From: Synechococcus sp. BIOS-E4-1
GTDB lineage: Bacteria > Cyanobacteriota > Cyanobacteriia > PCC-6307 > Cyanobiaceae
Reading direction: 5' to 3'
Assembly (NCBI RefSeq): GCF_014279995.1
Contig: NZ_CP047935.1
Location: 1,757,494 to 1,821,493, forward strand
DNA length: 64,000 bases
The position numbers and the translations under genes are program-made. The notes under the pieces are model-generated. The model saw nothing but the letters and a program-made list of their open reading frames with translations, had not been told where the DNA came from and did not search any database. Positions 24,048-58,633 of this stretch are shown here, in pieces (position 1 is the stretch's first letter; each line of letters opens with the position of its first letter).

Positions 24048-25667
24048 ATGCCACGCAAGACGCAGCTTTTGCCGTACCTCCAGGCTAGTGCTGGCCGAAA
24101 CGTCACCTACGTCAGGCGAATACCCGCTGAATTGCAGGAATTCATGGACGGGCAGCGGTGGATACGCCGATCGCTGGGCATTAGGGCCACCGATTGCAAA
24201 GATCCAAACCTCATCAGCGCCTGGTCTGGGGTACATGCGGAGGTGGAAGAGCAGTTAGCCAAGGCAAGAGCCGCACAACAGCATGCATCGACCTCAGAGG
24301 GGCAGGAGACGGCCTTACGCCCGCGAGATGTGGCAGCAATTGCAGCTGAACCTTGGCTTCAGATCCGTAACGCCATGGAATCTGGGCAGATCAGCACGGA
24401 TATCCAGGCAGCAATGGTGGAAAAAATCCCTGAGACCTTGGCTCAAAGAGTCCTTGAGCTGAGATCGGTGCTTGAGAAGATAAAGCGAGGGGAAGTCATC
24501 GATATGGATCAGTTACTGGATCGTGTGACTGCAATAGAAACCCTGACGCTCGAACCAATCCTCAAATCACTGGACATATCTCCTAGTGCTGCAGATATGC
24601 GGGCAATCGTTAGACAGATGTTGCGCTATGCACCAGATGCCAGAGCCGACATAACAAAACTACAAGAGGGAGACTTCAGTCCACCGTCATTGGCAGCGAA
24701 GGCTCCACCACTGCCCACGAAACAGCTGACATGGGACGAAATGATGGAGCAATACAAGATATCAACGGGTGGAATTACAGAAGAGGACGGTGTTGGCGTA
24801 AGCAAAACTCGTGTCGCTCAATACGAGCTAGCGATTCGAGAGATATGTCTGTCATCTGGAAAATTCTTTCCACTTGAAATTACAAGAGACGATGTCCGCA
24901 AGTTTGTCAATGAGTTGCAAACGAGCGACAGAGCAATTAGCACTCAACTAAAACGACTGGACTCACTAAGAAACTTATTCAATGTTGGCATCCAATCAGC
25001 GTTGGTTGATGAGAATCCCTTCCTTGGATTCAAGATTATGAAACCGAGAGGGGCAGAAACAAATACCTATCGCAGCTTTACAAGAGATGAGCTGAAAGCC
25101 ATCAGGAAAGAGGTGCGATCACAGGAGAATCCAGACAGAAACTGGGTGATAGATGCCCTAATCTGTACTGGTGCTCGTGCTAATGAGATTGTCAAGCTAA
25201 GAACAGACGACATCAAACAGAGTGACAGCAGTGTCTGGTTCTTTGACTTTAAGCACGAGCCTCAAGCCCAGTATCCGACATCACTGAAGGGAGCACAGGC
25301 GAGCGAACGACGCACACCCCTCCATACATTCCTAATTCAGCAGGGATACCTGACTTATCTAAAACGAAAGCCCGAAGGATACGTAATTGAATTAAGTAAG
25401 GACACAACAGCATGGAGCAAGTGGTTCAAGGAGCGAGTACTAGAAAAGTTGGGCATATGGGAGAAGCACATCACTGGTCTGCACTCATTGAGGAACACAG
25501 CAATAGATATGTGGAGAGAAGAAGGCGTATCAGCAGAGGTGCGCAGAGCTTTGGTTGCTCACGCAGCAAAAGATGTACAAGACAGAGTCTATGGTGAGGG
25601 CGTGAAGAATATGCCTGATGTTTTGTTCGAAGAGCTAAAAACAGTAGACCTAAGTTGGCTGCCGTGA
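24048..25667 (+). CDS. Tyrosine recombinase/integrase
   Basis: 539 residues with a long N-terminal part, an SAM-like core-binding domain (about 228-330) and a C-terminal catalytic domain. Catalytic residues are visible: Arg377 (TGARANEIV), His479-Arg482 (HSLR), His505 (LVAHAAKD) and Tyr515 (DRVYG). Such enzymes integrate phages, satellites and other elements by strand exchange at att sites. It is the first gene of the 24-50.5 kb element and points inward. Large integrases of this type are known from picocyanobacterial tycheposons, which suits this element, but that link is inference. Confidence 0.95.
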   Translation: MPRKTQLLPYLQASAGRNVTYVRRIPAELQEFMDGQRWIRRSLGIRATDCKDPNLISAWSGVHAEVEEQLAKARAAQQHASTSEGQETALRPRDVAAIAAEPWLQIRNAMESGQISTDIQAAMVEKIPETLAQRVLELRSVLEKIKRGEVIDMDQLLDRVTAIETLTLEPILKSLDISPSAADMRAIVRQMLRYAPDARADITKLQEGDFSPPSLAAKAPPLPTKQLTWDEMMEQYKISTGGITEEDGVGVSKTRVAQYELAIREICLSSGKFFPLEITRDDVRKFVNELQTSDRAISTQLKRLDSLRNLFNVGIQSALVDENPFLGFKIMKPRGAETNTYRSFTRDELKAIRKEVRSQENPDRNWVIDALICTGARANEIVKLRTDDIKQSDSSVWFFDFKHEPQAQYPTSLKGAQASERRTPLHTFLIQQGYLTYLKRKPEGYVIELSKDTTAWSKWFKERVLEKLGIWEKHITGLHSLRNTAIDMWREEGVSAEVRRALVAHAAKDVQDRVYGEGVKNMPDVLFEELKTVDLSWLP

Positions 25668-25738: not shown

Positions 25739-25909
25739 ATGAAAGTTGTCAATCCACTGACCAAGCGTGATCAACTTATTGCAGCAAGAGCATCGACCGA
25801 AGACAGGCTGCGTGCTGATCAATTGATGTCACGTCTAAACCTCAGTTCACACGGTGCATTGGTGCGTCAGTTGTTGGCAGAGAAAGCAAATGAATTAGGT
25901 GTGAAGTGA
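25739..25909 (+). CDS. Small ribbon-helix-helix-like protein, 56 aa
   Basis: KRDQLIAARASTEDRLRADQ, LMSRLNLSSHGALVRQLL and EKANELG fit the strand-helix-helix plan of Arc/CopG-type DNA-binding proteins, though the first strand is weak. AATAGGG lies just before the ATG. The stop overlaps the ATG of the 644-aa gene (TGATG), so translation is probably coupled. It may regulate the downstream structural-type operon. Confidence 0.6.
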   Translation: MKVVNPLTKRDQLIAARASTEDRLRADQLMSRLNLSSHGALVRQLLAEKANELGVK

Positions 25910-27843
25910 TGGACCCACAGCAGAGAGCAGCGAAAGAACAAGGCATCTTGGGTCAAATCAAGAGAGGACTATCCGAAGGATTCAGGGTGACACCAGAGGA
26001 TCGGCGTGATCTTCTGTGGGAAATCCGTGATGCTGAAGGAAAGTCTGAACCTCCACGGGGAACACAGGTCTTTGGCACACAGCCTCTCTTCGATGCTGCA
26101 CGTCAAGCAAAGACCGTTGACCCACAGCAGTTTGGCTGGCTGCCTGTTGATGCAATCAATAATGAGTCGTTCATCAGAAGAGCGAACGCTGGATTGAACT
26201 TCGGGCCATCACCAATGGATTTAATTGGTGAGCAAGTTACTGAAACAAACCTCCCCCGATACAAGGAGGCTCTGCACAATCAAGGCTTTGCTCGTAAGGC
26301 CGCATACCTTGGAGGTACTGTCGCATCGGACATAGTTAATGATGGTGCCAGGTCTATTTGGTGGTTGCTTAATGCACCTCAAGCTACGACTAACGTCATC
26401 AACGAACAGCTTGGAGCAACACTCAATCCAGACTTATTCGCTAACAGGGTTGTACCCCTTGAAGAAGCACAGAAGAAAGGGTGGGTTGCTTATGTTGAAC
26501 CTCAGCTTGATCCCGAAGTATTCCAAGCGCGAGTCAAAAAGATTCGAGATGCCCGCTCAGGAGAAGTATTCAACGCAATGGCAGACAGCCAGTTGGATAT
26601 GGACAACATTGAAGAAGCATTAGATGCTTTTGATCAAGGCGTAGAAACAGAGGCAAGAAGGGAACTACTAGAAGAAGCCAAGAAAGAGCCTGTCAATTAC
26701 AAGCGGACACGTCCTGGCGTAAAGATCAGAAGCAACCGCATCTACAAACGGAGGTTCAATCCAAACCTGGTGACAGCTGCCACCTTGATTCCAGCGGGGG
26801 TTGCAATCAATAGTGGGATTGGATTGCTCGGCAGACAAGAAGGCTATGCAGTGACAGTGCCACAGGAGGACGATCCGTTCAGCACTGACAATGTCGTAGC
26901 TGAGGTGGCAGCTCGTTACCTCACAGGCCGTGAGGGTCGATTGCTTGAGGCTGAAGATTTCTTATTAGAAAGACCCGACGTTTCTTACGGTGAATACCAG
27001 AAGTACAAAGGCTATCTAAGAGACCGTGATGTGGATTTGAATCCATTTGATGACGGCAGGATCAACCTAGGCGGAATCCTTAAGACAAATCCAGATGGCA
27101 TCAGAGGTGCAGAGGTCTCATTCATGGGCAAGACGCTGCCTGTCAACGACACACTGCTAGGAACTGGTGGCGCAATTCTTGGCGCTGCAGGTGGTGCAGC
27201 CCTTACCAACCTTGGATCAATTCGATTTAGAGGTGGGATGCGAGGGCGCAAGGGTCTCGGAAAGTTGGGTGCCTTTGTTCCTGAGGTGATGCCCCGTCAA
27301 AGTGATGGCACCAGAATTCAAGCCCATCCCAACAACAAGTTCATCAACAACATGCAAGCTGAGTTCGATAAGGACGATGGCTGGCAGCACAACGCACGTG
27401 TGTTGGGCACGGTGTTTGGTGGAGGAATGCTTGGCTTAACTGCAGGTGAAGTCACAGGCAACGCAATCGAAGACGAGCGACGTCGCCGTAACTTTGAAGA
27501 GCGCAACCCTGGCATTGACTATGAAACATACAGAGCAAATGCAAAGCAGTTGCTGAAAGATAAGTACGACCTGATGAAAGCTAATCCCAGTGCTGCAGAG
27601 GAAAGAGAGAAGTCACGCACAGGTTTCTCAAAGCGTAGTCAGCAGCAAGCATTGAACACCAAGGCACTACAACAGCAGACGTTGGTTGATCAAATTGTTG
27701 ACCAAGACTTGAGGCAACAAGCAGACAAAGCAATGAGCACACAGCAGTGGGCACTTGGCAAGTCACAAGCTATCGACGAAGAGATTGGTCGGCGGCGTGC
27801 CCGCAAGCAGGAAGAGGAGCAGCCTATGACTATTCCCTTCTAA
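25909..27843 (+). CDS. Large glycine-zipper protein of the element, 644 aa
   Basis: No family recognised. Mostly charged and helical, with three hydrophobic Gly/Ala-rich segments: LVTAATLIPAGVAINSGIG (about 293-311), LLGTGGAILGAAGGAALTNL (about 416-435) and VLGTVFGGGMLGLTAGEVTG (about 500-519), the last followed by Arg-rich DERRRRNFEER. The C-terminus is Gln-rich. Such GxxxG stretches are found in membrane-inserting or virion-internal proteins. It heads a four-gene plus-strand run (25909-29576) and shares its style with 27904 and 48256. A structural or membrane-active role is inferred. Confidence 0.75.
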   Translation: MDPQQRAAKEQGILGQIKRGLSEGFRVTPEDRRDLLWEIRDAEGKSEPPRGTQVFGTQPLFDAARQAKTVDPQQFGWLPVDAINNESFIRRANAGLNFGPSPMDLIGEQVTETNLPRYKEALHNQGFARKAAYLGGTVASDIVNDGARSIWWLLNAPQATTNVINEQLGATLNPDLFANRVVPLEEAQKKGWVAYVEPQLDPEVFQARVKKIRDARSGEVFNAMADSQLDMDNIEEALDAFDQGVETEARRELLEEAKKEPVNYKRTRPGVKIRSNRIYKRRFNPNLVTAATLIPAGVAINSGIGLLGRQEGYAVTVPQEDDPFSTDNVVAEVAARYLTGREGRLLEAEDFLLERPDVSYGEYQKYKGYLRDRDVDLNPFDDGRINLGGILKTNPDGIRGAEVSFMGKTLPVNDTLLGTGGAILGAAGGAALTNLGSIRFRGGMRGRKGLGKLGAFVPEVMPRQSDGTRIQAHPNNKFINNMQAEFDKDDGWQHNARVLGTVFGGGMLGLTAGEVTGNAIEDERRRRNFEERNPGIDYETYRANAKQLLKDKYDLMKANPSAAEEREKSRTGFSKRSQQQALNTKALQQQTLVDQIVDQDLRQQADKAMSTQQWALGKSQAIDEEIGRRRARKQEEEQPMTIPF

Positions 27844-27903: not shown

Positions 27904-28650
27904 ATGGCAAGATCACGTAAGCACTTAGGACAACACCCATCGCCACCAGAAAACAGGGGATGGTTCCGTGGCCCCGATCCTGAGGAGGTGAGTCAATATC
28001 AAGAGAAAGTTTTCAAGCGCAACGAACGTGAAGCGTTCAACGAAAAGGTTGCTGAGCGACGTCGCATGATGGCGGGATTGCCTCAAGGAATGAACAACGG
28101 ATTCACTCGTGACATTGGTGATGCTGTTGTTGATGCAAGGGGAGCAGTCCGCAACATCAATACACCTGCAGCCATTGCACTCGGTGCCGGTGGTGCAGCA
28201 GCAGGTATCGCTGGACTGAATGCCTACTACCAGCAGAACGCTGAAGGTCTGCCGAATGATGGGTACAACGTGGCGGGCAGAGCAGTGAACAACGCCCTGG
28301 CTGGACTGGCCGGTGGAGTAGGGCTTGATCCCTTGGCTGAAGCAAGGAACAACGTACGTGAAGCAGGCACAGTGCTTGGCTCACCCAATCTGCTTGAAGC
28401 CGTAGCCGCAGATGAATTGCTGGCAATGGATGAGGCAACACAAGCACTGGAAGCAGAGGGAGTTGGCACTGGACCAGCTGGCTTGAGCGAAGGTCAGTTC
28501 ATGCAGATGGTTGACGCACGAGCACAGCAACTGCAACAAGTACCCATTCAGAAGTCGGATGGTTCAGTCGCACCTATGGGTTACGACAGTGCTATTCGTT
28601 TCGCACAAGAGCAGGTCTACAACGACCTGAGAGCACAAGGAATTATCTAA
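27904..28650 (+). CDS. Glycine-zipper protein of the element, 248 aa
   Basis: Starts MARSRKHLGQHPSPPENRGW, then a charged helix with KRNEREAFNEKVAERRRM. Two Gly/Ala-rich stretches follow: AIALGAGGAAAGIAGLNAYY (about 97-116) and ALAGLAGGVGLDPL (about 131-144). The rest is acidic and Gln-rich. No known domain. It has the same layout as the 644- and 231-aa proteins, suggesting common ancestry or a common membrane-facing function. Confidence 0.75.
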   Translation: MARSRKHLGQHPSPPENRGWFRGPDPEEVSQYQEKVFKRNEREAFNEKVAERRRMMAGLPQGMNNGFTRDIGDAVVDARGAVRNINTPAAIALGAGGAAAGIAGLNAYYQQNAEGLPNDGYNVAGRAVNNALAGLAGGVGLDPLAEARNNVREAGTVLGSPNLLEAVAADELLAMDEATQALEAEGVGTGPAGLSEGQFMQMVDARAQQLQQVPIQKSDGSVAPMGYDSAIRFAQEQVYNDLRAQGII

Positions 28651-29869: not shown

Positions 29870-30100
29870 TCAACTGAAGATTCCAACACAGCTGAACATC
29901 ACACCCAGCAATTTGTTAACACCAGATAAATCAATCGTAGATGCTTGATTGAAGATGCTGACTTGCTCGATAATGCCCTTGCCGGTCAGGGCTTCGACAG
30001 CCAAACCAATACCGAGGCCAAGCATTGCAGCTCGTCCGTTCAGCTTTTCACTGAAAGACTTGTATGGGTCAGGCGTGAACTTGTTAGTTGCTTCGGACAT
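29870..30100 (-). CDS. hli: High-light-inducible (Hli) protein
   Basis: 76 residues with the chlorophyll a/b-binding-like helix FSEKLNGRAAMLGLGIGL then EALTGKG: Glu18, Asn21 and Arg23 match the ExxNGRxAMxG motif that ligates chlorophyll. Hli proteins bind pigments and protect photosystems under light or nutrient stress. The C-terminal extension (about 44-76) is unlike most host Hlis. Hli genes are common cargo of cyanophages and genomic islands; its place inside an integrase-bearing element fits that pattern. Confidence 0.93.
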   Translation of the reverse strand: MSEATNKFTPDPYKSFSEKLNGRAAMLGLGIGLAVEALTGKGIIEQVSIFNQASTIDLSGVNKLLGVMFSCVGIFS

Positions 30101-31540: not shown

Positions 31541-31906
31541 GTGCTCACTGGATCTGAACTGCTTACCAAAGTCAAAGACCTTGGTGATGTCTCAAAGACT
31601 GATCTTGCAACAGCTTGTGGTTACGTCTCTAAAAAGAAAGACGGCAGTGACCGTGTGAATTTCACAGCTTTCTACGAAGCCTTGCTCAATGCAAAAGGCA
31701 TTGACTTGGGCGGCTCTGCGAGTATGGGCAAAGGTGGACGCACGCTCAGCTACAAAGCGACAGTGCAAGGCAACGGCAATCTGCTGGTCGGCAAGGCCTA
31801 CACAGCGATGCTTGATCTACAGCCAGGCGATGAGTTCGAAATCAAGCTGAGCAAGAAGAGCGTTCGTTTGATTCCAGTTGGAGCAGAGGAAGAAACAGAA
31901 GAGTGA
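31541..31906 (+). CDS. abrB: cyAbrB-type transcriptional regulator
   Basis: 121 residues from GTG at 31541. The N-terminal LTGSELLTKVKDLGDVSKTD, ATACGYVSKKKDGSDRVNF and the C-terminal AbrB strand set (VQGNGNLLVGKAYTAML, PGDEFEIKLSKK) match the cyanobacterial AbrB family, global regulators acting on carbon/nitrogen and some toxin genes. A copy in a mobile element could regulate the element or the host. Terminator-like CTGCCTCTTAAGAGGTGGGG follows at about 31940. Confidence 0.92.
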   Translation: MLTGSELLTKVKDLGDVSKTDLATACGYVSKKKDGSDRVNFTAFYEALLNAKGIDLGGSASMGKGGRTLSYKATVQGNGNLLVGKAYTAMLDLQPGDEFEIKLSKKSVRLIPVGAEEETEE

Positions 31907-35590: not shown

Positions 35591-35625
35591 GCCAAAACAG
35601 AAAAGATTGACCATAAAGCAGGAGG

Positions 35626-35898
35626 TTATTTTAGGGGAACACCTGTGGTAATGAAGGCGGTAAAAATACATCCTCCATAGCTGCACCAGGCACCACCAGC
35701 AGCCTGCTCAAGATCATCGTCTAAGAGATACTTAACGCGTTCGTCGGGTGCCTGCATTGAGACACTTCCGCTCGCAACCTCTTTGGACAAAAGCAGCTGC
35801 TCCATGGCTTCAGTCGTCTTGACTGTACGGAGCTGTTCCTGAAGATGCGGGTCAGATGCGACCTGTTCAATGAGAGACTTGAGTTGATTTTGAGTCAT
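35626..35898 (-). CDS. procA: Divergent Nif11-leader precursor, 2-Cys core
   Basis: Leader MTQNQLKSLIEQVASDPHLQ is Nif11-like but far from the cluster consensus (KTTEAMEQLLLSKEV, DERVKYLLDDDLEQAAGG). The 21-residue core starts AWCSYGGCIFTAFITTG; Cys 3 and 8, Ser 4 and Thr 11, 15, 16. It begins with MT like the genes under the CACCAGA block, but no block of that kind is directly upstream; the bacteriocin-like gene 35931 precedes it by 32 bases, so the two may be cotranscribed. Confidence 0.85.
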   Translation of the reverse strand: MTQNQLKSLIEQVASDPHLQEQLRTVKTTEAMEQLLLSKEVASGSVSMQAPDERVKYLLDDDLEQAAGGAWCSYGGCIFTAFITTGVPLK

Positions 35899-35930
35899 TG
35901 TCTTAATGCGAAAGAAGCTGGAAGTGGGGA

Positions 35931-36125
35931 TTAGGACTTGTAGCTATTGATGTTGTCGATGTTTTGGCCAGTGCTTCCGCCCCAAAGTGAAGCAATTGTG
36001 TTCATCTGACCAATTACAGGGATGAAGTTCATTCCGACATCGACCCAAGTGCCAACAGTTTTGCCGCCTTGGATTGCTTCGAGCTGGTCGTTGGTCAGTT
36101 CTGCAGATTGATTGTTGTTAGTCAT
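35931..36125 (-). CDS. Class IIb bacteriocin-like peptide, 64 aa
   Basis: A 21-residue leader, MTNNNQSAELTNDQLEAIQG with a final G, precedes a 43-residue core. The core contains KTVGTWVDVGMNFIPVIG and LWGGSTG, with GxxxG-like spacings and no Cys, resembling helical subunits of two-peptide bacteriocins. It lies under a phased CACCAGA block. Pairing with the 35-residue core at 35184 is an attractive but untested idea. Confidence 0.75.
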   Translation of the reverse strand: MTNNNQSAELTNDQLEAIQGGKTVGTWVDVGMNFIPVIGQMNTIASLWGGSTGQNIDNINSYKS

Positions 36126-36169
36126 GGTTTTGAAGTGAGTTGAGTGAGTGATGTGTGGGGTGTTGCCCC

Positions 36170-36272
36170 CTCGACTCCTTCAAGATCACAGCCCTACTGG
36201 TGAACCCCACTGCACAGCTCTGGTGTAGACCCCATGAGGTTCTGGTGCGCTTCTGGTGAATCGCTCAGAACT
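36170..36272 (-). promoter_or_regulatory. Phased CACCAGA block, copy 3 (minus strand)
   Basis: Half-sites begin at 36258, 36247, 36225 and 36202 on the minus strand (11, 22, 23). Upstream of it lies a CGCTCAATCGTGCCAGG copy (about 36313-36330), the other type of precursor block. Confidence 0.8.
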
Positions 36273-36384
36273 CAGTCACCACCTTTTGAAAAATGTTTTC
36301 ATCTGCCTGATAACTGCTCAACTGCGCTCAATCGTGCCAGGCATTGAAGGCTGATTTATGAGCTTATTGGCGAGGTTGAAGAAG

Positions 36385-36410
36385 TAAAAAGCCCCTGTGG
36401 GTGCAGGGGC
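36385..36410 (-). terminator. Terminator of the 36473 precursor
   Basis: Minus strand: GCCCCTGC-ACCCAC-AGGGGC followed by TTTTTAC. Confidence 0.8.
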
Positions 36411-36472
36411 TGTGAGTGTGTGTAGCCTGTGGGTTGGCGTGAAGCTTCTATTTGCGTGAAGCTTCTAATGTT

Positions 36473-36700
36473 TTATCCTGTACACATATTATCACCACCT
36501 ACGTGTGATATTCCACCTCCGCTAACGCCTTCCAGCTCCTCTTGACTGAGCTCTTCGATCTTATCAGCAGTGAATTCATGACCATGTTCTTTTGCAATTC
36601 CTACGACATCGTCAGGTGACTTAGCTGCTTTTAGTTTCACTTGAAGATTGGAATCACCTTTGACCTTGGCGAGGAATGCCTTGAGTTGTTCTAGCGACAT
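36473..36700 (-). CDS. procA: Prochlorosin precursor with minimal 1-Cys core
   Basis: Start at 36700 (MSLEQLKAFLAKVKGD); leader of the SPDD subgroup (KSPDDVVGIAKEHGHEF), ending LEGVSGG. The 13-residue core GISHVGGDNMCTG has one Cys (11) and Ser3/Thr12, so only one ring is possible, most simply Ser3 to Cys11. It is a close relative of the chromosomal genes at 17525 (same MSLEQLKAFLAKV start) and 57988 (same leader middle). Confidence 0.9.
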   Translation of the reverse strand: MSLEQLKAFLAKVKGDSNLQVKLKAAKSPDDVVGIAKEHGHEFTADKIEELSQEELEGVSGGGISHVGGDNMCTG

Positions 36701-36849
36701 GGGTGTCAAGTCTGTTGAGTAATCATAGCGACGGTCTGCTGCAGCGTCTTTGGCTAATACTCCTGGGCTCAATCGTGCCAGGTATGGCGACGAAGTCGTC
36801 ACCTATTGAAGGCTTGATTTGTGGGGTTTTTGGTGTGATTGAAGCAATA

Positions 36850-36875
36850 AAAAACCCCTACGGCGGCAGGGGGTT
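36850..36875 (-). terminator. Terminator of the 36966 precursor
   Basis: Minus strand: ACCCCCTGCC-GCC-GTAGGGGT followed by TTTTTATTG. Confidence 0.75.
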
Positions 36876-36965
36876 TGAGTGTGTAAACTTAAATCCATTC
36901 AAAATAGAAAGCATAGCCCAAGATACCAGTAGAAAGTGACACCGCCACGCTAGTAGTAGACGGAG

Positions 36966-37214
36966 TTAACAGTCCCACAGGCGGCACCTCCACGTACAGC
37001 TGTTCTGAAAGGAAAGGCCACCAGCCGCGCCCTCTAGCTCTTGGTCTGAAAGTTCGGATTGAGCCTTAGTTAGGTCATCAGCAGAGATACTGAAACCTGC
37101 TTCCTTGGCAATCGCTGCAACAGCATTGGCATCAGCTGCTGCCTTGAGCTTCTCCTGAAGGCTGGTGTCTGCTTCGACCTTCTCCAGGAAGGCTTTGAGC
37201 TGATCTTCTGACAT
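36966..37214 (-). CDS. procA: Prochlorosin precursor, 3-Cys core
   Basis: The leader (MSEDQLKAFLEKVEADTSLQ) ends LEGAAGG. Core LSFQNSCTWRCRLWDC has Cys 7, 11 and 16 and Ser/Thr 2, 6 and 8; two Trp and two Arg make it unusually aromatic and basic. The block upstream (37281, ACTGCGCTCAATCGTGCCAG) and the box TTATAGCAACGG in reverse are the usual type. Confidence 0.93.
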   Translation of the reverse strand: MSEDQLKAFLEKVEADTSLQEKLKAAADANAVAAIAKEAGFSISADDLTKAQSELSDQELEGAAGGLSFQNSCTWRCRLWDC

Positions 37215-37340
37215 AGGTATCGGGGGTCTTTACCGGTTATAGCAACGGTCTTCTGAAGAGACTTTGGATAATATTTACTGCGCTCAATCGTGCCAGGTAT
37301 TGAAGGCTGATTTATGAGCTTATTGGCGAGGTTGAAGAAG

Positions 37341-37370
37341 TAAAAAGCCCCTGCGGTTGCAGGGGCTTTG
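37341..37370 (-). terminator. Terminator of the 37433 precursor
   Basis: Minus strand: AGCCCCTGC-AACC-GCAGGGGCT followed by TTTTAC. Confidence 0.85.
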
Positions 37371-37432
37371 ATGAGTATGCTCACATTGATGAGTCGCCAA
37401 CCTTAGAAACGGTTACGGTCTTACCTCCCGCC

Positions 37433-37705
37433 TCACGGACACCCACTAAACCTACAAGTCCAAAATCTACCACCCGTATTTACTAACAAACCACCCGCCA
37501 CGCCTTCCAGTCCTTCGTCTGAAATCTCTGGCGATTGTTCTTCAAGTCGTCGAGCGTTCTTCAAGTCATCAGCGAAGATACTAAATCCAGCTTCTTTTGC
37601 AATCGCAACTACTGCATCAGCATCCGAAGCAGCTTTGAGCTTCTCCTGAAGCGTGGTGTCGCCTTTGACCTTTTCTAGGAAGGCTTTGAGTTGCTCTTCT
37701 GACAT
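37433..37705 (-). CDS. procA: Prochlorosin precursor, 2-Cys core
   Basis: Leader near consensus, with an eight-residue insertion before the end (NARRLEEQSPEISDE), ending LEGVAGG. The core LLVNTGGRFWTCRFSGCP has Cys 12 and 17 and Thr5, Thr11, Ser15. It is the most upstream gene of the element's precursor block; 170 bases separate it from the terminator of the ssDNA-binding-like gene. Confidence 0.93.
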   Translation of the reverse strand: MSEEQLKAFLEKVKGDTTLQEKLKAASDADAVVAIAKEAGFSIFADDLKNARRLEEQSPEISDEGLEGVAGGLLVNTGGRFWTCRFSGCP

Positions 37706-38664: not shown

Positions 38665-39153
38665 TCAAGCAAAGGTATATTCTTTGCCATCGTGTAGGTA
38701 GCTGCCTGTCTTCCTAAGGCTATGGCGAATGCTTTGATAGCTATTGAATTCACCTAACTGATCTGCAAGCTGCCGTATAGACGGGAAGTTATCTCCAGTC
38801 TCCTTACAAATGATCTTCCGCTGAGATCGGTTTCTCATGCCGCAGCTCAGACATTGGGTTGAACGACCAGCCTCAATATTTATTAGGCTGACTTTAGAGA
38901 TTTCATTACACAGAAGGCAGACTGCATCTACCTTTTGATCATCTCTTGACTCAGCCTTGTCAGAGGGCAAGACAAACCAACTACCGTGTCGCTTGAACGC
39001 ATATCGATAGCGCTCTATATCAGGCTGAAAGCGCAGGATATACTCTCGTATCTTAGGCGTGAGTTTAATCTCTAGCTCCCTTGAGGCACTAGCTACTGTC
39101 CCACCCTTGAGAAGTATATGTTCAATAATCTTTGTGGCATCACTAACATACAT
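38665..39153 (-). CDS. Zinc-finger/NUMOD-type DNA-binding protein, 162 aa
   Basis: A central four-Cys knuckle (VCLLCNEI at about 78-85; QCLSCGMRN at about 99-107) is followed by CKETGDNFPSIRQLADQLG and YQSIRHSLRKTGSYLHDG, a NUMOD1/IENR1-like DNA-binding helix-turn repeat found in homing endonucleases and phage regulators. No nuclease motif is seen. It lies beside the iteron clusters, so it might act at the replication origin. Confidence 0.6.
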   Translation of the reverse strand: MYVSDATKIIEHILLKGGTVASASRELEIKLTPKIREYILRFQPDIERYRYAFKRHGSWFVLPSDKAESRDDQKVDAVCLLCNEISKVSLINIEAGRSTQCLSCGMRNRSQRKIICKETGDNFPSIRQLADQLGEFNSYQSIRHSLRKTGSYLHDGKEYTFA

Positions 39154-39225: not shown

Positions 39226-39328
39226 GGTTTCCGAGAGAGTGGAAACTATGGAAACTTGGAAACTCCCCTGCGCCGCAAGGGATTTAAAGAATGGTTAATG
39301 GAAACTCGTTGGAAACCATGGAAACCTA
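39226..39328. repeat. GGAAAC iteron-like cluster 1
   Basis: Six GGAAAC hexamers in about 90 bp (GTGGAAACTATGGAAACTTG and ATGGAAACTCG, TTGGAAACCATGGAAACC), plus one reversed GGTTTCC at the left edge. Spacings of 8-11 bp recur. Together with cluster 2 it flanks a small gene and stands upstream of the RecA-fold ATPase. Candidate replication origin or operator. Confidence 0.75.
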
Positions 39329-39510
39329 CACAATTGCAATTAGACTGTTTACACTTAGAGCCCCCAAGTCACACTTAAATCTTATATAGTAGAGAGTAGG
39401 GGGAGTAGTAGTATTTATGAATATAGAAAGCAAGTCTATTAAAAAGCTATGTGAAGCCTGCTTGCATCTTTAAGCTCAATATCTAGATTGCAAAACCAAA
39501 GAGAACACGA

Positions 39511-39669
39511 ATGCTTGAGAGCATCCCTGAGCATATATTCAACAAAGATATTGATATCGATACGCTGCAGTGGTTCAGAGCGCATGTACTTTGCCTAGAG
39601 ATAGATGAAGACTACGAAGATGTTGACGCCTTGATTGCTGAATTTGTTCTCAATTCACGACGGCGATAA
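39511..39669 (+). CDS. Small acidic protein between the repeat clusters, 52 aa
   Basis: ATG at 39511 follows GAGAACACGA. The product MLESIPEHIFNKDIDIDTLQ, then WFRAHVLCLEIDEDYEDVDA and LIAEFVLNSRRR is strongly acidic and helical, with a basic end. Being enclosed by GGAAAC repeats suggests a replication or copy-control role, which is inference. Confidence 0.6.
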   Translation: MLESIPEHIFNKDIDIDTLQWFRAHVLCLEIDEDYEDVDALIAEFVLNSRRR

Positions 39670-39707
39670 AAGCAATTACTCACTCTTTTGTGTACTTAGG
39701 CAACATC

Positions 39708-39796
39708 TAGTTTCCATAGTTTCCAAGTAGTTTCCAAATGGAAACTCTGAAACCCTAGTCATACCAGTGGAGTTTCCAAGTTTCCATAGTTTCCAT
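39708..39796. repeat. GGAAAC iteron-like cluster 2
   Basis: Seven copies: GTTTCC (reverse orientation) at about 39710, 39719, 39730, 39772, 39780 and 39789, and one direct GGAAAC at about 39740. The unit TTTCCATAGTTTCCA occurs twice. It ends just before the ATPase stop codon. Confidence 0.75.
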
Positions 39797-39816: not shown

Positions 39817-41292
39817 TCAGTAGTCCTCGCTGAACTTCTGCTTGATGAAGTAGGTGACTTCATAGTGTTTGCTCCCGTCCGCTTCAATCTCAGCAATCAA
39901 AGGTGTGCCTTGGAATCGCTCTTCCTTCAATGCACTGAGGCTCTTGCTGACAGTTCCTTTGTTGAGGCTGTGGTCTGCAACCAACGTTGCTTGTGACACT
40001 GGTGCCTCATATGAGTAGAGAGCATCAAAGACGGCCCGCTTACCTGCGCTTAAGCAGCCCACAACAGCGTGAATGGTCGTCGTATCGAAGACATCGTCTA
40101 TATCTGCTTGAGCTTCGATAGCGAAGAGTGCGTCATAGAAGTCTCCGTGACTCTTCACTGAACCATTCTCAAAGTCCAGCTCCACAAGCAGATCGATTGG
40201 AGTGCCCCGGTGACCGGCTACCATCCTGCGCTTGGCTGACTTGCGATCAGGGATGGCCTTGCCGTTGACCTTGGACTTCTGGTCCAGGAAGTTGAGCGTG
40301 ATGATCTGACCAGCAAAGGCAGGGATAGACCCGTGACCACGGAGGCTGTCAGCACCAGTGAACTCTTGTGTGCTCTCTTTCTTTTGGTGAGCCAGGACAA
40401 TCGGCGTTGCGTTATGCCTCTCGCAAACCAGCTTTAGATCCATGATGCGGGCGGCCATCATCGGTGAGTTCTCATCCACACCGCTGCTGGAGATAGCAGC
40501 GAGCAGTGAGTCCACAACAACTATTGAGTTGGGATGCTCCTTCAGTCGAGTCTCCAGCTTGTCGAGGTTGCTACTGCTGATGCTCCACCCACTCTCGTTA
40601 GGGATGAAGTTGAAATTGGGCACAGCTCCCTTCTCGTTGATCAGTCCTGTGTTGCGGAAGATGGGGGTATAGACATTGCGTCCTCCATCAAGGCCAATGA
40701 AGAACACTTGGTTCACTTGATCACGGTTCACTCTGTAGCCAAGGAACCTGGGCTCTCGCTCTGGGTTGAGTAGAGCACTGAGAAGCATCGCAGTGAAGTT
40801 CGTCTTGGCTGCTCCAGACAAGCCACCAATGATGTTGAGTTCGCCCTTGGTGATGAGGTCTTCAATGATGTGGCTCTCACCGTGCTCAAACCACTGGGAG
40901 CCTTGCTCAGAGTTGATGAGGATTAGGTCTGAGCCGTACTTGTTTCGGCTGTGATGCTCAAGCAAGACCTGAACAATACGGTTGTCAGTGAGCTGATGCC
41001 CTGACTGCCTGGAAGCAAACTTGATTAGGTCAGTCTTCTGCTCAGACGTCAGTAGGTCATCACTGCAGATCTCAGTGATCTTCGATTGAAGTTCAAGCAG
41101 TACTGCTTTGTAGCCTTCGACTGTGGGCTCAGGAGAACGCCTTGACTTCGAGGTCTTCCTACCTTTGAAGGGATTGCTTGTCTGTGGCTCAAGATTAGGA
41201 AGTGGCTCTTCATAAGCCGTTTCACTTACTGAGTTTTGAAAATCTATAAAGTCAAAATCGACCTCATGGTCGTCGCTGTTTTGTATGGACAT
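39817..41292 (-). CDS. RecA-fold replicative ATPase/helicase-like protein
   Basis: 491 residues. Walker A GGLSGAAKT (156-164) and Walker B SIVVVDS (256-262, Asp261) frame a RecA-like core; IVLAHQKK (about 298-305) is the usual downstream motif of RepA/DnaB-type and AAA_25 proteins. The N-terminus is acidic, and the C-terminal 120 residues look like a winged-helix part (VSQATLVADHSLNKGTVSKS). Probable helicase or loader of the element's replication, flanked by iteron-like repeats. Confidence 0.8.
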   Translation of the reverse strand: MSIQNSDDHEVDFDFIDFQNSVSETAYEEPLPNLEPQTSNPFKGRKTSKSRRSPEPTVEGYKAVLLELQSKITEICSDDLLTSEQKTDLIKFASRQSGHQLTDNRIVQVLLEHHSRNKYGSDLILINSEQGSQWFEHGESHIIEDLITKGELNIIGGLSGAAKTNFTAMLLSALLNPEREPRFLGYRVNRDQVNQVFFIGLDGGRNVYTPIFRNTGLINEKGAVPNFNFIPNESGWSISSSNLDKLETRLKEHPNSIVVVDSLLAAISSSGVDENSPMMAARIMDLKLVCERHNATPIVLAHQKKESTQEFTGADSLRGHGSIPAFAGQIITLNFLDQKSKVNGKAIPDRKSAKRRMVAGHRGTPIDLLVELDFENGSVKSHGDFYDALFAIEAQADIDDVFDTTTIHAVVGCLSAGKRAVFDALYSYEAPVSQATLVADHSLNKGTVSKSLSALKEERFQGTPLIAEIEADGSKHYEVTYFIKQKFSEDY

Positions 41293-41493: not shown

Positions 41494-42045
41494 ATGACGG
41501 ATAGGAGTAACTCTGTGTCCTCGAAAAATACAATGACCAAAGAAGAGTATCTGTATGCACAGGAAAGGTTGCTAGACGAAGCAATGGAGGGAAACCTCTG
41601 TCAAATCAAGGTGTACCCAGCGCAGAACCGACAGCTGTGGCTGATGGATAAGTCATATAAAACTGTTGGACTGATTCATCGCTGGCTTTTCTTCTCTGAT
41701 TATCTAAAGCCAGGGCTTGAGCCTGAAGAACGCGTGTTCTCTGTCTATACGTTTGCCTCACTTCTGCAGAAGGCAGTCAGGTACAAAGGTGCTGAGCATC
41801 CTCGCCGTGACTTCATTGAGTTTGCAGAGGAAGCACTGCACAAGATGGCAGAGAAAGGAATCGTAGAACTGCTCACATTGGACAATGGTTTCTTGGCTGC
41901 GTGTATTAAGTGCACAGGCAAGAGGACTGCTGATATTGAGGCAGGTAAAGCTAGGTATGAAGATGCCAAAGCCCTTCGAGAGATTGAGTTGCAGGACAAT
42001 GTCACGCTACTTACTCGCTGCTTTAAAATCTCCACGAGCAGCTGA
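41494..42045 (+). CDS. Hypothetical protein, 183 aa
   Basis: MTDRSNSVSSKNTMTKEEYL opens a helical protein with YLYAQERLLDEAMEGNLCQI and VYTFASLLQKAVRYKGAEHP. No recognised family. A second possible start is MTKEEYLYAQ. It is divergent from the ATPase gene and upstream of the highly translatable gene at 42320; a regulatory or replication-accessory role is possible. Confidence 0.6.
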   Translation: MTDRSNSVSSKNTMTKEEYLYAQERLLDEAMEGNLCQIKVYPAQNRQLWLMDKSYKTVGLIHRWLFFSDYLKPGLEPEERVFSVYTFASLLQKAVRYKGAEHPRRDFIEFAEEALHKMAEKGIVELLTLDNGFLAACIKCTGKRTADIEAGKARYEDAKALREIELQDNVTLLTRCFKISTSS

Positions 42046-42319: not shown

Positions 42320-43171
42320 ATGTTCAATATCACTACTTCCGTGCGGCCTATTGCCGTGCTTGAAGCACCTGCTTTTTACAAAGGGAATACATATCAAGTT
42401 GCTGTAGCAGCAACGGTTCCTTTGGCAGATAAGGATGTTCCTCTGATGGCAGCAGTTCTCAGCCCTATTGAGAGCAATCAATCACGGATCATCAATGAAG
42501 TATTTAAGGCATATCAAGAACTCCCAGCTGTAGATCAAGAGACCACTGTGCTGAATGTCGGTGGCCTTGGATGGGTGTCTGATCACTATCGCCTGAACAA
42601 CAAAGGCAACGACAAGTACGAGGCCTACCAAGAAGCGATGGAGTTCTCGATGATTCCTGCTGAAGCCCTTGGTGATGCAGGTGATGCTGTGTTCCCAGAC
42701 ATCGTGCTGTTTGGAGACACGCTTGAGGTCACCACTACCGATAGCTTGCAGTCCTACTTCTCAACTGACTGCGGCTATCTCATTGTCGAAGAGTCCAAAG
42801 GTGGAGACACCAACTGGTACAAGCTGCAGTCGCGTGGCCCTTCTGTTGGAGAAGAGGGCACCACGAACCCACGGTTCAATGTGTCCTGCACCAAAGCTAT
42901 TGCGCGTCAGTTCGAGATCTTCCAGGTAGACACCACTGTGCAAGGTGCATTTGCTGGGAACCTTGGTGGATACATCGGTCAAGACGGGACGCTAAAAATC
43001 CGCTTCTCAGTCAGCCGTTTCTTCTATGCCAAAACGTTCAGCAACTCAGGTGGTGTGCAGCGGGAGACGATGCAGCGTCCTCAAGTAGGACAAGCATCAA
43101 TCAATCCAGCTGTTGCAGCACTCCGTAATCGGATGCCTAAGGCCCAAGAGGTCGCGGTCGATGACTATTGA
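42320..43171 (+). CDS. Hypothetical beta-rich protein, 283 aa
   Basis: A strong AAGGAG site nine bases before the ATG suggests high expression. The product starts MFNITTSVRPIAVLEAPAFY; the middle is beta-rich (VLNVGGLGWVSDHYRLNNKG, GYLIVEESKGGDTNWYKLQS) and the C-terminus is basic and polar. No family recognised; an ssDNA-binding, capsid-like or decoy protein are all conceivable. Its stop overlaps the primase-like gene by 11 bases, so the two are coupled. Confidence 0.65.
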   Translation: MFNITTSVRPIAVLEAPAFYKGNTYQVAVAATVPLADKDVPLMAAVLSPIESNQSRIINEVFKAYQELPAVDQETTVLNVGGLGWVSDHYRLNNKGNDKYEAYQEAMEFSMIPAEALGDAGDAVFPDIVLFGDTLEVTTTDSLQSYFSTDCGYLIVEESKGGDTNWYKLQSRGPSVGEEGTTNPRFNVSCTKAIARQFEIFQVDTTVQGAFAGNLGGYIGQDGTLKIRFSVSRFFYAKTFSNSGGVQRETMQRPQVGQASINPAVAALRNRMPKAQEVAVDDY

Positions 43172-44219
43172 ACTGCCTCTGTATCAGTTCTCCTACAACG
43201 AAGGCTTTGGAAAGAACGGCTCACCGAAGAAGCCATTCAATACAAGGTCATATGGGGAGGGCTGGATACACAGCGTTGAGTCGCTGACAGGTGTGATGGA
43301 GCACGCCCAGCAAATGCATGGCTGGTCTGGTGCAGTGTTCCAAGACGGAAAGAGAGACGGCAAGCACTGGTTCGCTAGTGGCCTGCTGGTATGTGAGTTC
43401 GATACCGTCAAGTATCCCGATTCAGATGCAATTGATTGGGAGAGAACCATTGCCAGCAACCCACGCATTGAAGACATCGAGAAGATCCCCTTCATTGCTG
43501 CTGCCTATCTCTCACAAAGCTGCGACCCCAGCAAGGACGTGTTTGTTGGGCGGATCATTGCGACCATCAGCCAGCCAATCACTGACCCTTACGAATTCAA
43601 AGCAGCTGCCGAGCTATTTCACCAAGACGTCGAGACAGCAACAGGCTGCGTCATCACTGATCGGTGTGGATGCGACAAGGTTCGTTGGTGGGGCGGGTTG
43701 AAGTCACCAGAGCATTTGCTCTTTGTCAGACCTGAGCTGGTGTCTTACGAAACCCCTGAGCTGATTGAGCGAGCACAGGTTGAGGTAGTCCAGAAGAACC
43801 CCTACCAGTACCAGCCACGAGATAACTCTGAAGCCGTAGCTGAGGGCTCAGTCTCTCCAGCAACCGTATGGATACTGCGTTGGATCTTTCGAACCATCCT
43901 TCCGCCTCCTGATGCTGAGGCATACAACAGCTTGGTTACTCCAGCGAAAGCATTGGCACGACTGGTGTCACCACAGCTTGATCAGGAGTTCTGCGACTGG
44001 ATGTCTCTGTCTGAGTACCGGATGGAAAAGGTCAACAACGACCCACTCGACTTTCTCTACAAGGGAGAGAGCTTTGATAACGCATCAGTTGGTTGGTTCA
44101 TACGTGCCGTAGATAAGCAGGTTCCTGATTGGAGGGATTTGTTTGAGGTCGAATACGGTGCTTATCCAGGATTGGATTGCTTCAATCCCAGTAAACGACA
44201 ACCAGGGATGGTGAACTAA
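43161..44219 (+). CDS. Primase-like replication protein, 352 aa
   Basis: Start at 43161 (MTIELPLYQFSYNEG), overlapping the previous gene. A strand GLLVCEFDTVKYPDSDA (about 74-90, acidic residues Glu79, Asp81) and VRWWGGLKSPEHLLFVRPEL (about 189-208) recall the catalytic core of archaeo-eukaryotic-type primases or PrimPol proteins of plasmids and satellites. The motifs are only partly recognisable. Its position directly before a VapE-type helicase strengthens the call. Confidence 0.55.
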   Translation: MTIELPLYQFSYNEGFGKNGSPKKPFNTRSYGEGWIHSVESLTGVMEHAQQMHGWSGAVFQDGKRDGKHWFASGLLVCEFDTVKYPDSDAIDWERTIASNPRIEDIEKIPFIAAAYLSQSCDPSKDVFVGRIIATISQPITDPYEFKAAAELFHQDVETATGCVITDRCGCDKVRWWGGLKSPEHLLFVRPELVSYETPELIERAQVEVVQKNPYQYQPRDNSEAVAEGSVSPATVWILRWIFRTILPPPDAEAYNSLVTPAKALARLVSPQLDQEFCDWMSLSEYRMEKVNNDPLDFLYKGESFDNASVGWFIRAVDKQVPDWRDLFEVEYGAYPGLDCFNPSKRQPGMVN

Positions 44220-44265: not shown

Positions 44266-45618
44266 ATGACACTTACACCACACAGAAAGATAACTGTTAT
44301 GGGATATAGCAATCAGTCAGAGGATGATGATCTTGATTTGCTTGAGTTTCAAGAACACTTGAAAGCAGAGACGCAAACAAGGAAGCAAGCCAAGAGAGGG
44401 CGTCCTGTTGGGTCAACGAATGATGCGTCAATCATTGCCAAGCAGCAGAAGGAGCACAGGGAAATGGTTCTCCGTGCTTTGCCTGGCCTTGGGTTTGATA
44501 TCCGTAGGCAAGCAAGCATCTATAGAGACAAGAAGAAGCTTGGAGTGAAGGTGCTGTCTGCATCCCAGATCAAGAACGTTCATCACTTAATTGGTGAAGT
44601 CCTTGGCGAAAGCATGCGGGGAGAGCACGCTCGCTCTGCTGTTGAGTACCTACTCGCAGCCAACCAAGTCGATCCTGTTGTCGAGTATCTGGAGAGCTGC
44701 CGTGGTCGTGCCTTGTCGATGAGCTGGAAAGAAATCACCAAGCGTGTCTTCAAGACTGACGGACCACTCGCTGTCGAGATCTTCCGCAAATGGATGGTCG
44801 GTGCTGCCAAACGCCCTCTTCAACCAGGGTGCGTGATGGATTGGCTGATGATCATCTGCGGTGCTCAAGGGATTGGCAAGAGCGCGTTCGGTCGGTCACT
44901 CATCCCTAGCTCTGATTGGTACGGCGAACTCAGCAGCGACGTTGACCTTCTGGTGAAAGAGCCCAGCCGCATGCAGATGAGCTGGCTCAATGAACTAGCC
45001 GAGGTGGACTCGATGACCTGCGGACGTAAGAGCGACAGAGAGAAGATGAAGAACCTGATCAGCATCAGGGAGGACGTCACTCGTCTGCCATACGCACCTC
45101 ACCCTGAGCGTGTGCCTCGTGCCTTTGTGTTCTACGGCAACACCAACCGCACTGAGTTCATTACTGATGTTGAAAGCCGACGCACCTTCATGATCTCCGT
45201 ACCTGAAGGAGAGACCATCGACTTCCTGTGGGTACAAGCGAACCGTGATGGTCTATGGGCCAAGGCTCTTGAAGAGATTGAGCAAGGCACAAGCTGCACC
45301 TGGACCCGCGCTGAGTACGAGCAAGTCCATGAGCACACAATGCAGTACCGGATTGAAGACCCAATCGAAGTCCTGCTTGATGAGTTCTTGGCAACACGGA
45401 ACAAGGTCTCGATTGGAGAGGTCATTCGGTGTGTGCTGCAGGTCCCACCACATATGCAGGAGCTGACCCACAGCAGGCGTGTCTCTGAACTGATGCGTGC
45501 CAGGGGATGGAGCAAGTCCGTCACCAGCATCAAAGACGAGACAGGAAGAAGTAAGTCAGCACGAGTGTTTAAGAGACCACAGAATCAACCACAAGTAAAT
45601 GAGAACCTGGAGTATTAA
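44266..45618 (+). CDS. VapE/D5-like superfamily 3-type helicase
   Basis: 450 residues. The N-terminal KQAKRGRPVGSTND resembles an AT-hook-like basic patch. Walker A CGAQGIGKS (198-206), an acidic motif WLNELAEVD (240-248), VTRLPYAPHPERVPR (271-285), FYGNTN (289-294) and ESRRTFMISV (303-312) match the virulence-associated E / D5-like ATPase group, which unwinds DNA for satellite and phage replication. With the preceding primase-like gene it forms the element's replication module. Confidence 0.88.
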   Translation: MTLTPHRKITVMGYSNQSEDDDLDLLEFQEHLKAETQTRKQAKRGRPVGSTNDASIIAKQQKEHREMVLRALPGLGFDIRRQASIYRDKKKLGVKVLSASQIKNVHHLIGEVLGESMRGEHARSAVEYLLAANQVDPVVEYLESCRGRALSMSWKEITKRVFKTDGPLAVEIFRKWMVGAAKRPLQPGCVMDWLMIICGAQGIGKSAFGRSLIPSSDWYGELSSDVDLLVKEPSRMQMSWLNELAEVDSMTCGRKSDREKMKNLISIREDVTRLPYAPHPERVPRAFVFYGNTNRTEFITDVESRRTFMISVPEGETIDFLWVQANRDGLWAKALEEIEQGTSCTWTRAEYEQVHEHTMQYRIEDPIEVLLDEFLATRNKVSIGEVIRCVLQVPPHMQELTHSRRVSELMRARGWSKSVTSIKDETGRSKSARVFKRPQNQPQVNENLEY

Positions 45619-48255: not shown

Positions 48256-48951
48256 TCAGACGTAGGTGTTCTGTTGCCCAGGGTCGTTGTTACGCAGTTG
48301 GTTTGCAAGAGCAAGCAACGCACCACCAGTTGCACCAATAGCCGCACCTCTTAAACCCCTACGTCTGGCAGCACCAAGCTGTTCGACCTGGTCGAGAGGT
48401 CGTACGCGTACTGCTTGAGGTTGATTGCCAATCGAAAGTGTTTGCTGCGCAGGTGTTGTGTAGAAACCTGTCAAACCGCCAGCACCTAATCCCATTGCAG
48501 TGCCGAGAGCTGCTTGAGAATAAGGATTATCAGTTAATCCTCCTTGGTCATCACTCTGTAGATAATTGACAGCCAATCCACCAGTACCAGCAAGAGCAGC
48601 ACCAATAGCAGCACGCCTGCCGAAACGTCCCAGGTCCATATGACCCAGCTTCTCTTGAATGAGCTGATGAGCTACACGTTCATCGTTACGCATACGCCGT
48701 GCTTCACCACCCATACGCTTGTAATTACCTTCCTGTCTGACAAGGGCACCGCCCTTAGCTTCCTTGCGCTTGGCGTTCTCCTTGCTGATGGTTTCGTTAA
48801 TAGATTCGACATCAACAACAGCATCAGCAGCAAGTGGGTCACCGGCATACAAGCCCGTGTCATACATGGGATGCACACCTTCTTGAGCAGCCATCAACAG
48901 CGCTGCATCATCAAAGCCAATGTTACCGATATCAAAGAGATCAAACATCAC
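48256..48951 (-). CDS. Glycine-zipper protein of the element, 231 aa
   Basis: MMFDLFDIGNIGFDDAALLM, a charged helical part (KENAKRKEAKGG), then three Gly/Ala-rich segments: RRAAIGAALAGTGGLAVNYL (about 112-131), ALGTAMGLGAGGLTGFY (about 148-164) and RGAAIGATGGALLALANQL (about 201-219), each preceded by basic residues. Same style as the proteins at 25909 and 27904. Membrane-active or virion-associated function is inferred. It shares the TTAGTTAACAAA box upstream. Confidence 0.75.
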   Translation of the reverse strand: MMFDLFDIGNIGFDDAALLMAAQEGVHPMYDTGLYAGDPLAADAVVDVESINETISKENAKRKEAKGGALVRQEGNYKRMGGEARRMRNDERVAHQLIQEKLGHMDLGRFGRRAAIGAALAGTGGLAVNYLQSDDQGGLTDNPYSQAALGTAMGLGAGGLTGFYTTPAQQTLSIGNQPQAVRVRPLDQVEQLGAARRRGLRGAAIGATGGALLALANQLRNNDPGQQNTYV

Positions 48952-55251: not shown

Positions 55252-55340
55252 CAGAGGCTCACCAGAAACTCGCAGGGTCTACACCAGAGCTGTGTAGTGG
55301 GGTTCACCAGAAGGGCTGTGATCTTGAAGGAGTCGAGGGG
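55240..55340 (+). promoter_or_regulatory. Phased CACCAGA block, copy 4
   Basis: Half-sites start at 55249, 55260, 55282 and 55305 (11, 22, 23 bp), followed by GGGCTGTGATCTTGAAGGAG and TCGAGGGGG. It precedes the gene at 55373. Confidence 0.85.
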
Positions 55341-55372
55341 GCAAAGCCACCAAACATTCATTCCTTAGAACC

Positions 55373-55603
55373 ATGACTCAAGAACAACTTACAGCTTTTC
55401 TGGCTAACGCCAAAGCCAACACAAACCTTCAGGAGCAGCTCAAAGCAGCGGCTGATACCAATGCTGTAGCTGCCATTGCAAAAGAAGCAGGTTTTAGTAT
55501 CTCTGATGATAACTTGAAAAGCGCTCAATCGAAGATTACTGATGAAGAACTGGAAGGCACGAGTGGTGGCGAGGGCTCCTGGAGAGCAGGTTGGGGGCCA
55601 TGA
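55373..55603 (+). CDS. Nif11-leader peptide without cysteine
   Basis: MTQEQLTAFLANAKANTNLQ opens a Nif11-type leader ending LEGTSGG. The 10-residue core EGSWRAGWGP has one Ser and no Cys, so no lanthionine can form. The leader belongs to the MT-start subgroup together with 57118 and sits under the CACCAGA block. It may be an unmodified peptide or one modified in another way. Confidence 0.85.
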   Translation: MTQEQLTAFLANAKANTNLQEQLKAAADTNAVAAIAKEAGFSISDDNLKSAQSKITDEELEGTSGGEGSWRAGWGP

Positions 55604-55925
55604 CGGGTTCGCCTTTCGATGTCACCGCAGCATAAGAATTGCCAAGGTTAATTACCACGATGGTAAGGTTCAACGAATTGCCACGGTTGTAGGTAATGCT
55701 TGAACAGCATACGCACAAAAACTGTTTGCAATGGTAGGGGGTTAATTTCTTTAATAGCCGGTCCATTCGCGTAAACCTGCCTCCAATACCTGGCACGATT
55801 GAGCGCAGTAATTGTAAGTTAAGGGTAAGTTCCCGTCGCTGAAAGGCTGGAAGCGTTACCCGCCTAGGTGGTGATACAAACCATTGCTATAACCGCTCAA
55901 GACTCCCGTTACCCATGTCAGATGA

Positions 55926-56132
55926 ATGACTCAAAGCCTTCAGGAGAAGATCAAAGCAGCTGATGATATTGATGCTTTTATTGCGATTGCGAAACATGCA
56001 GGTTTTATGATTTCTGTTGACTTCTTGAAGAAAGCTCAATCAGAACTTTCAGATGAGGAACTGGAAGCCACGGCTGGAGGCGGCTGGAACTTTCCAACAA
56101 CAATGTCATGTGACGCATGTAAGAGGTGTTGA
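55926..56132 (+). CDS. procA: Precursor with internally deleted leader
   Basis: An MSDE fragment ends at TGA (55916-55930), because about 45 bases between two similar CTCAAAGC/CTTCAGGAG stretches are missing. A new ATG inside GAATGACTC gives MTQSLQEKIKAADDIDA, a leader lacking its first helix. It still ends LEATAGG with a 3-Cys core, GWNFPTTMSCDACKRC. Translation from the new ATG is plausible but has a poor ribosome-binding site; it may be on the way to a pseudogene. Confidence 0.7.
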   Translation: MTQSLQEKIKAADDIDAFIAIAKHAGFMISVDFLKKAQSELSDEELEATAGGGWNFPTTMSCDACKRC

Positions 56133-56340
56133 GACTCTGGGATGAGGTATTTGATTGAAGTTATCTCATCAAAACCCCTACCATCACAGGTGGTTTTTAT
56201 TAGTTGAATAGCCTGACTAAACTCAAGAATCAGTCTTCAATACCTAACACGAGTGAGCACACTAAGTATTAACCAAATACGCTGCTGCGCATCGTTGCGG
56301 TGGCTAGTTTGTAGTGCTAAACCTAGTCAAGCAATGGGTC

Positions 56341-56441
56341 TGAGCTATTCACCAGAAGCTCACCATAACTTCTTGGGTGCTGCACCATAGCTGTGTAGTG
56401 GGGTTCACCAGTAGAGCTGTGATCTTGAAGGAGTCAAGAGG
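56341..56441 (+). promoter_or_regulatory. Phased CACCAGA block, copy 5
   Basis: Half-sites start at 56350, 56361, 56383 and 56406 (11, 22, 23). The following CTTGAAGGAGTCAAGAGG is slightly diverged. It precedes a secreted protein gene rather than a peptide precursor. Confidence 0.85.
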
Positions 56442-56473
56442 GCGGCACCCCCACACTTCCACTACTTAACGCC

Positions 56474-56878: not shown

Positions 56879-56942
56879 CCTACTTCCGACGAAAATCGTC
56901 GTTGGCACATACGCCTGACAAAACAAACTCACACCAATCACA

Positions 56943-56967
56943 CCCCGCCACGAGCGGGGTTTTTGCT
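56943..56967 (+). terminator. Rho-independent terminator
   Basis: CCCCGC-CACGA-GCGGGG followed by TTTTTG. Ends the secreted-protein gene. Confidence 0.85.
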
Positions 56968-56989
56968 GTCTGGCTACCTGCATCAATGC

Positions 56990-57090: not shown

Positions 57091-57117
57091 ACCCCCAAGC
57101 ACTCACGGCTTAGAACC

Positions 57118-57786: not shown

Positions 57787-57836
57787 TACCTTAAGCTGAC
57801 AACCTTTGCTAGAAGATTTTTCAGCTTAAACACCAA

Positions 57837-58592: not shown

Positions 58593-58633
58593 CACCCCAC
58601 CACATGTCTCACACCAAACTCACTTGTTAAATC

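Follow-up and report, generated by a model that had tools for sequence, protein, structure and literature searches.

Two mirror-image iteron arrays beside an AAA_25 helicase gene

We analyzed a 64,000-nucleotide stretch of the genome of Synechococcus sp. BIOS-E4-1 (here called the window), which carries an integrated mobile element. Within the element, a gene on the minus strand (39817-41292) encodes a protein of 491 aa, which we regard as a helicase-like initiator candidate and in which an AAA_25 ATPase domain was recognized (E = 1.2e-9). Next to it, between positions 39227 and 39794, lie 14 exact copies of GGAAAC/GTTTCC, seven in each of two clusters, where about 0.3 would be expected. The whole window holds 41 copies against 31.8 expected from shuffling, and it contains no comparable stretch. 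An earlier note on this DNA had correctly placed the two clusters beside the ATPase gene and had pointed out that their density is unmatched in the window, although it counted thirteen repeats.

Twelve of the 14 copies make up two six-site arrays that are mirror images of each other. The left array (39240..39325, plus strand) has its sites at 39241, 39250, 39258, 39300, 39311, and 39320, and the right array (39710..39795, minus strand) has them at 39789, 39780, 39772, 39730, 39719, and 39710. Read on its own strand, each array has exactly the spacing 9-8-42-11-9, and the sequence of the 36-bp gap is unlike between the two arrays despite this identical register. The two extra copies are out of register and on the opposite strand to their array, one at 39227..39232 (minus) and the other within the gap of the right array at 39740..39745 (plus). 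The arrays face each other, 383 bp apart, and the right array starts about 22 nt past the AAA_25 stop codon.

To score such arrays, we took six 6-base sites at steps of (8-10)-(8-10)-(41-45)-(10-12)-(8-11), with every position scored and a maximum of 36. The window reaches 36/36; when the 830 bp downstream of the ATPase gene were shuffled 40 times, the score never exceeded 28. No further array was found in the host genome, a single 3.31-Mb contig, so that the window copy is the sole one. The only DnaA box consensus tried, TTWTNCACA, had no match within 39 to 40 kb.

The DNA between the arrays (39326..39709) has an AT content of 0.62, compared with 0.53 for the window, and is a candidate melting region; its most AT-rich 50 bp start at 39406 (AT, 0.76).

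Gene content of the element and its nearest relative

A PDB search with a profile of the AAA_25 protein and three homologues returned only T7 gp4-type primase/helicases, and these weakly (E of about 0.1). The C-terminal part of the protein (approximately residues 411 to 491; 39820..40062, minus strand) appears to be a winged-helix-like domain, for which we propose a role in iteron binding. This tail weakly matches a MarR-like structure (E = 0.84), and the tail of one homologue resembles the LexA winged helix at a subthreshold level (E = 0.002). The AlphaFold model of the helicase was too poor for use (pLDDT, 46), and the winged-helix assignment therefore draws on sequence and these weak matches.

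Elsewhere in the element are a tyrosine recombinase/integrase (24048..25667, plus strand), about 14 kb from the arrays; an AbrB-like regulator (31541-31906); a divergent neighbor of the helicase gene that encodes a 183-aa protein of unassigned function (41494..42045, plus strand); and a VapE-type helicase (44266-45618), the second replication-type helicase of the element.

Among 300 host-family genomes searched, we found one other close homologue of the AAA_25 helicase, 63% identical, at a locus that we call G216; plain protein scans of viral contigs and genome contigs returned no helicase relatives. The G216 locus retains the integrase (41% identity), a 299-aa protein, the AbrB-like protein, the helicase, and the 183-aa neighbor (60%). 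It has no VapE gene, no counterpart of the zinc-finger protein encoded at 38665, and no 52-aa open reading frame (ORF). Behind the helicase stop codon it carries two mirror-image arrays, about 510 bp apart and facing each other, with the spacings 9-8-42-11-9 and 9-8-42-11 (the final site is degenerate), built from the word TGCAAC and not GGAAAC.

A block between the arrays (39375..39434, plus strand) is also conserved in G216 (81% over 64 columns), at a near-equal distance from the left array in both. It holds AGTAGGGGGAGTAGTAGTATTT at 39395-39416, which looks like a promoter/Shine-Dalgarno sequence before an 18-codon ORF (39417-39473); in G216, the same sequence lies at about 14711-14732 of contig L036 and precedes a 28-codon frame. 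The block and its ORF are possibly a leader peptide or the start of a regulatory RNA. The 52-aa gene that the earlier note had placed between the clusters does exist as an open frame (39511..39669, plus strand), but as it has no counterpart at the G216 locus, it is probably not a component of the system.

The spacing recurs at other AAA_25 loci

We applied the same score to the 830 bp 3' of AAA_25 genes, requiring enough downstream DNA. Arrays at 23 of 44 helicase loci beat all 40 dinucleotide shuffles, a count that, like those below, includes many closely related and hence nonindependent loci. At about half of the AAA_25 homologues, a recognizable array was missing. Since the gap was not to be fixed beforehand, we also varied the central step from 20 to 71 (52 gaps), keeping the other steps near those of the window, at 42 unselected loci that exclude the window and G216. 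Fifteen of the 42 loci scored at least 31/36, with a best step of 43 (eight loci) or 44 (seven loci), and no shuffle reached 31.

The commonest form of this spacing, which we call the ruler, was 9-9-43-11-9. The repeated word differed among loci and included GGAAAC, GGATTC, GATTCTT, TCTTTG, CCGTTG, TGTTCC, CGGACA, and GGGTTC. The features that define the group, a six-site array with a central step of 42 to 45 that lies on the 3' side of the helicase gene, no more than 800 bp away, are present in the window, and in the window and its closest-packed relatives the first array starts 5 to 22 nt past the AAA_25 stop codon.

The ruler was not found at the more distant plasmid and S-CBS1 AAA_25 homologues tested, and distant plasmids with AAA_25 proteins carry other repeats. 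GTGAGTC iterons at 3050-3395 occupy both strands of a small plasmid of Cyanobacterium aponinum (L082, NZ_CP149442.1), with a different ruler (10/12/23/55 spacing), and lie near an unannotated primase-like frame. In Caldicellulosiruptor bescii pATHE01 (L084, NC_012036.1), a 9-bp tandem repeat, AATAGAGTG, lies within the AAA ATPase gene at 6442-6560.

The repeated word co-varies with the helicase C-terminal domain

Co-variation was examined in 15 close relatives whose ATPase cores are about 95% identical. Loci that share a word were 0.083 higher in identity over the C-terminal 101 residues (0 of 10,000 permutations), while identity of the ATPase core did not differ with the word (P = 0.54). Seven columns distinguish a word group, and every one of them falls in the C-terminal domain. 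Synonymous positions of the C-terminal stretch also track the word, and those of the preceding 100 codons do not; linkage, or exchange of domain and array as one piece, thus explains part of the correlation. The C-terminal domain and the array seem to form one module that is inherited or exchanged together. Such joint inheritance would fit a binding domain that travels with its sites, with linkage alone as the alternative account.

This evidence points to the ATPase's own C-terminal domain as the candidate iteron binder. The binders put forward in the earlier note, the zinc-finger protein encoded at 38665 and the 52-aa protein, are both absent from the relative that keeps the arrays, which makes them unlikely for this role.

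Arrays in viral contigs and beside other helicase classes

A first pattern that required only GNAAC at offsets 0, 9, 17, 59, and 70 matched four IMG/VR contigs (L046, L047, L048, and L049) and one Roseovarius contig. Mirror-image pairs with the word TGGAAC are found in the near-identical L046 and L047 and in L049; the word in L048 is TGTAAC. The array pair of L047 lies directly 3' of a gene for an 805-aa Toprim-DUF5906 helicase.

We then took the register 9-9-43-11 from the AAA_25 set and applied it as a prediction. It matched 19 contigs, 12 of which have noncoding arrays that fall into four groups (L097/L103/L106/L111, L100/L101/L112, L098/L104/L110/L114, and L109). In the first two groups, the arrays follow the 3' end of a DUF5906 gene by 219 to 230 nt, and the L109 array follows that of a DUF3987 gene by 219 nt; no helicase gene adjoining the array was identified in the L098 group. 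The other seven contigs were discarded, because in each the match fell inside a long reading frame, mostly on coding repeats of 9 nt and in one case on collagen.

The clean spacing control, 9-8-37-11, in which the central step is 5 bp shorter, gave no matches. Reversed spacing is not a control, because it turns into the original ruler, with a flipped word, when the other strand is read. The reversed pattern 11-42-8-9 had no matches and 11-43-9-9 had four, two of which (L116 and L119) proved to be genuine arrays whose word runs in the opposite orientation.

Among 13 named phages picked by DUF5906/VapE homology, five beat all 60 shuffles. Stenotrophomonas phage S1, spaced 9-9-43-12-9, reached 36/36; the arrays of Marinobacter phage PS3 are mirror images of each other. 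The paired viral arrays point outward from a short center, whereas those of the window and G216 face inward. Within the open-access subset of the literature, we found no publication on this spacing.

Comparison with known origins

The origins of PICI/SaPI elements lie immediately 3' of rep, with two iteron sets flanking an AT-rich region; the iterons are recognized by the helicase C-terminal domain, and two hexamers have been proposed (PMC6092414, PMC7581432). The window resembles these elements (e.g., EcCICFT073 and SaPIbov1) in having an array immediately 3' of the candidate initiator gene, 22 nt past its stop codon, and two inverted arrays around DNA with an AT content of 0.62 (window, 0.53). 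It differs in its initiator, which is of the AAA_25 type, while that of EcCICFT073 is a D5_N/DUF5906/Pox_D5 protein (AAA+ SF3-like). The validated EcCICFT073 origin is also off the 9-9-43-11-9 ruler (best score of 28, with shuffles up to 29).

The satellite phage P4 likewise has short type 1 repeats on both strands of ori and crr, and its crr lies 46 nt past the gene for the alpha helicase-primase. Its repeats are arranged otherwise and are off the ruler (best scores of 26 to 28, within the range of shuffles), and the essential sites are divided between ori and crr. P4 alpha is a fused primase/helicase associated with GGTGAACAG-type repeats, whereas the window has an AAA_25 protein with GGAAAC (TGCAAC in the relative).

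The broad-host-range IncQ plasmid RSF1010 has a hexameric RecA/DnaB-like helicase, RepA, and its iterons, of the 20-bp class, are bound through winged helices by a separate protein, RepC. Compared with this description, the window helicase itself seems to bear the winged-helix-like tail, and its sites are six bases long. In pRN1, the primase-helicase gene is immediately followed by the origin (PMC4234260), which thus adjoins the 3' end of a helicase gene, as the arrays do in the window, but consists of a 100-nt stem-loop without iterons.

The window thus appears to follow the PICI/SaPI origin plan without being a member by initiator type. As the initiator type differs and both EcCICFT073 and P4 are off the ruler, we set it apart as a putative self-loading-helicase origin with an AAA_25 initiator, whose fixed six-site spacing seems to be common to several helicase classes.

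A candidate replication origin and its alternatives

Taken across loci, the comparison shows a fixed ruler (three sites, a step of about 43 bp, and three sites), mirror copies, a location just downstream of the helicase gene, and a word that changes freely yet co-varies with the helicase C-terminal domain. From these sequence relationships, we consider it probable that the two arrays act as the integrated element's replication origin, with the AAA_25 (DnaB/T7-gp4-like) helicase as the iteron-binding initiator. The earlier note had read the repeats as iterons of an origin or of copy-control operators. The kept spacing, the 3' location, and the co-variation of word and C-terminal domain favor the origin half of that reading; the operator half is not borne out, as no promoter or gene arrangement is conserved with the arrays.

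If the arrays were operators, they would be repressor sites for the genes on either side or for the short ORF that they enclose, acting in copy control or a lysogeny-type switch and not in replication. The left array is indeed upstream of a divergent gene (38665-39153), some 75 bp from its start, and the promoter/Shine-Dalgarno-like block is located between the arrays. However, the position of the arrays 3' of a helicase gene is retained even though the flanking genes vary among the window, its relative, and the viruses, the word tracks the helicase C-terminal domain, and a fixed register of six sites over 85 bp is unusual for operators, all of which makes this role improbable. On plasmids, partition and incompatibility sites can likewise consist of iteron arrays, and a parS- or inc-like site would titrate or segregate the element and not start its replication; as the co-varying partner is a helicase and no ParA/ParB-like gene was recognized among the window proteins scanned, we hold this to be very unlikely.

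Mirror arrays around a central conserved block also recall attP arms, and the element has a tyrosine integrase, so that the sites could be arm-type integrase sites around a core or could form the inverted termini of a small transposable insert. Yet both arrays are internal to the integrated element, some 14 kb from the integrase, and beside a helicase gene at a distance that is kept in relatives. With no other array copies in the genome, including at possible element ends, we rejected both forms of this explanation, which we consider highly improbable. The VapE helicase could, alternatively, be the user of the arrays, but G216 keeps the arrays without VapE.

For an origin used by the AAA_25 helicase, we propose that the C-terminal winged helices of the protein bind all six sites in an array and that this binding assembles the protein as a ring, with six sites corresponding to one ring. 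The ring would then melt the AT-richer DNA, either inside the arrays or in the region between them, and start unwinding; two opposed arrays would load two rings, giving two forks. The fixed spacing may mirror the geometry of the assembling ring, which would explain why it outlasts changes of the word.

A broader proposal, for and against which we see equal weight, is a common "origin ruler" by which unrelated ring helicases (AAA_25, DUF5906, and DUF3987) load on six-site arrays of one spacing and any word in cyanobacteria, proteobacteria, and uncultivated viruses. The spacing would reflect ring assembly, and the specificity domain and array would be swapped as a cassette. The origins of mobile elements are usually found singly, each from its own repeat; a word-independent spacing rule would make origins and initiator helicases recognizable from their sequence. 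Changes to the spacing would make the long-open question of how self-loading ring helicases assemble on iterons directly testable, and because the word co-varies with the C-terminal domain, natural pairs from which to derive a recognition code are at hand.

Other open reading frames in and around the element

The VapE gene is preceded by a gene for a 368-aa protein without a Pfam match (43113-44219), and a high-light-inducible-protein-like ORF (29870-30100) adjoins the element genes. Many ORFs for Nif11-leader-like peptides (MSEEQLKAFLEKVK...GG) occur inside the element and on both sides of it (12300-15600, 35600-37700, and 55300-62100). Large glycine-zipper and R/A-GA-rich proteins without family matches are encoded at 25906-27843, 27904-28650, and 48256-48951; they are possibly virion or membrane proteins of the element.
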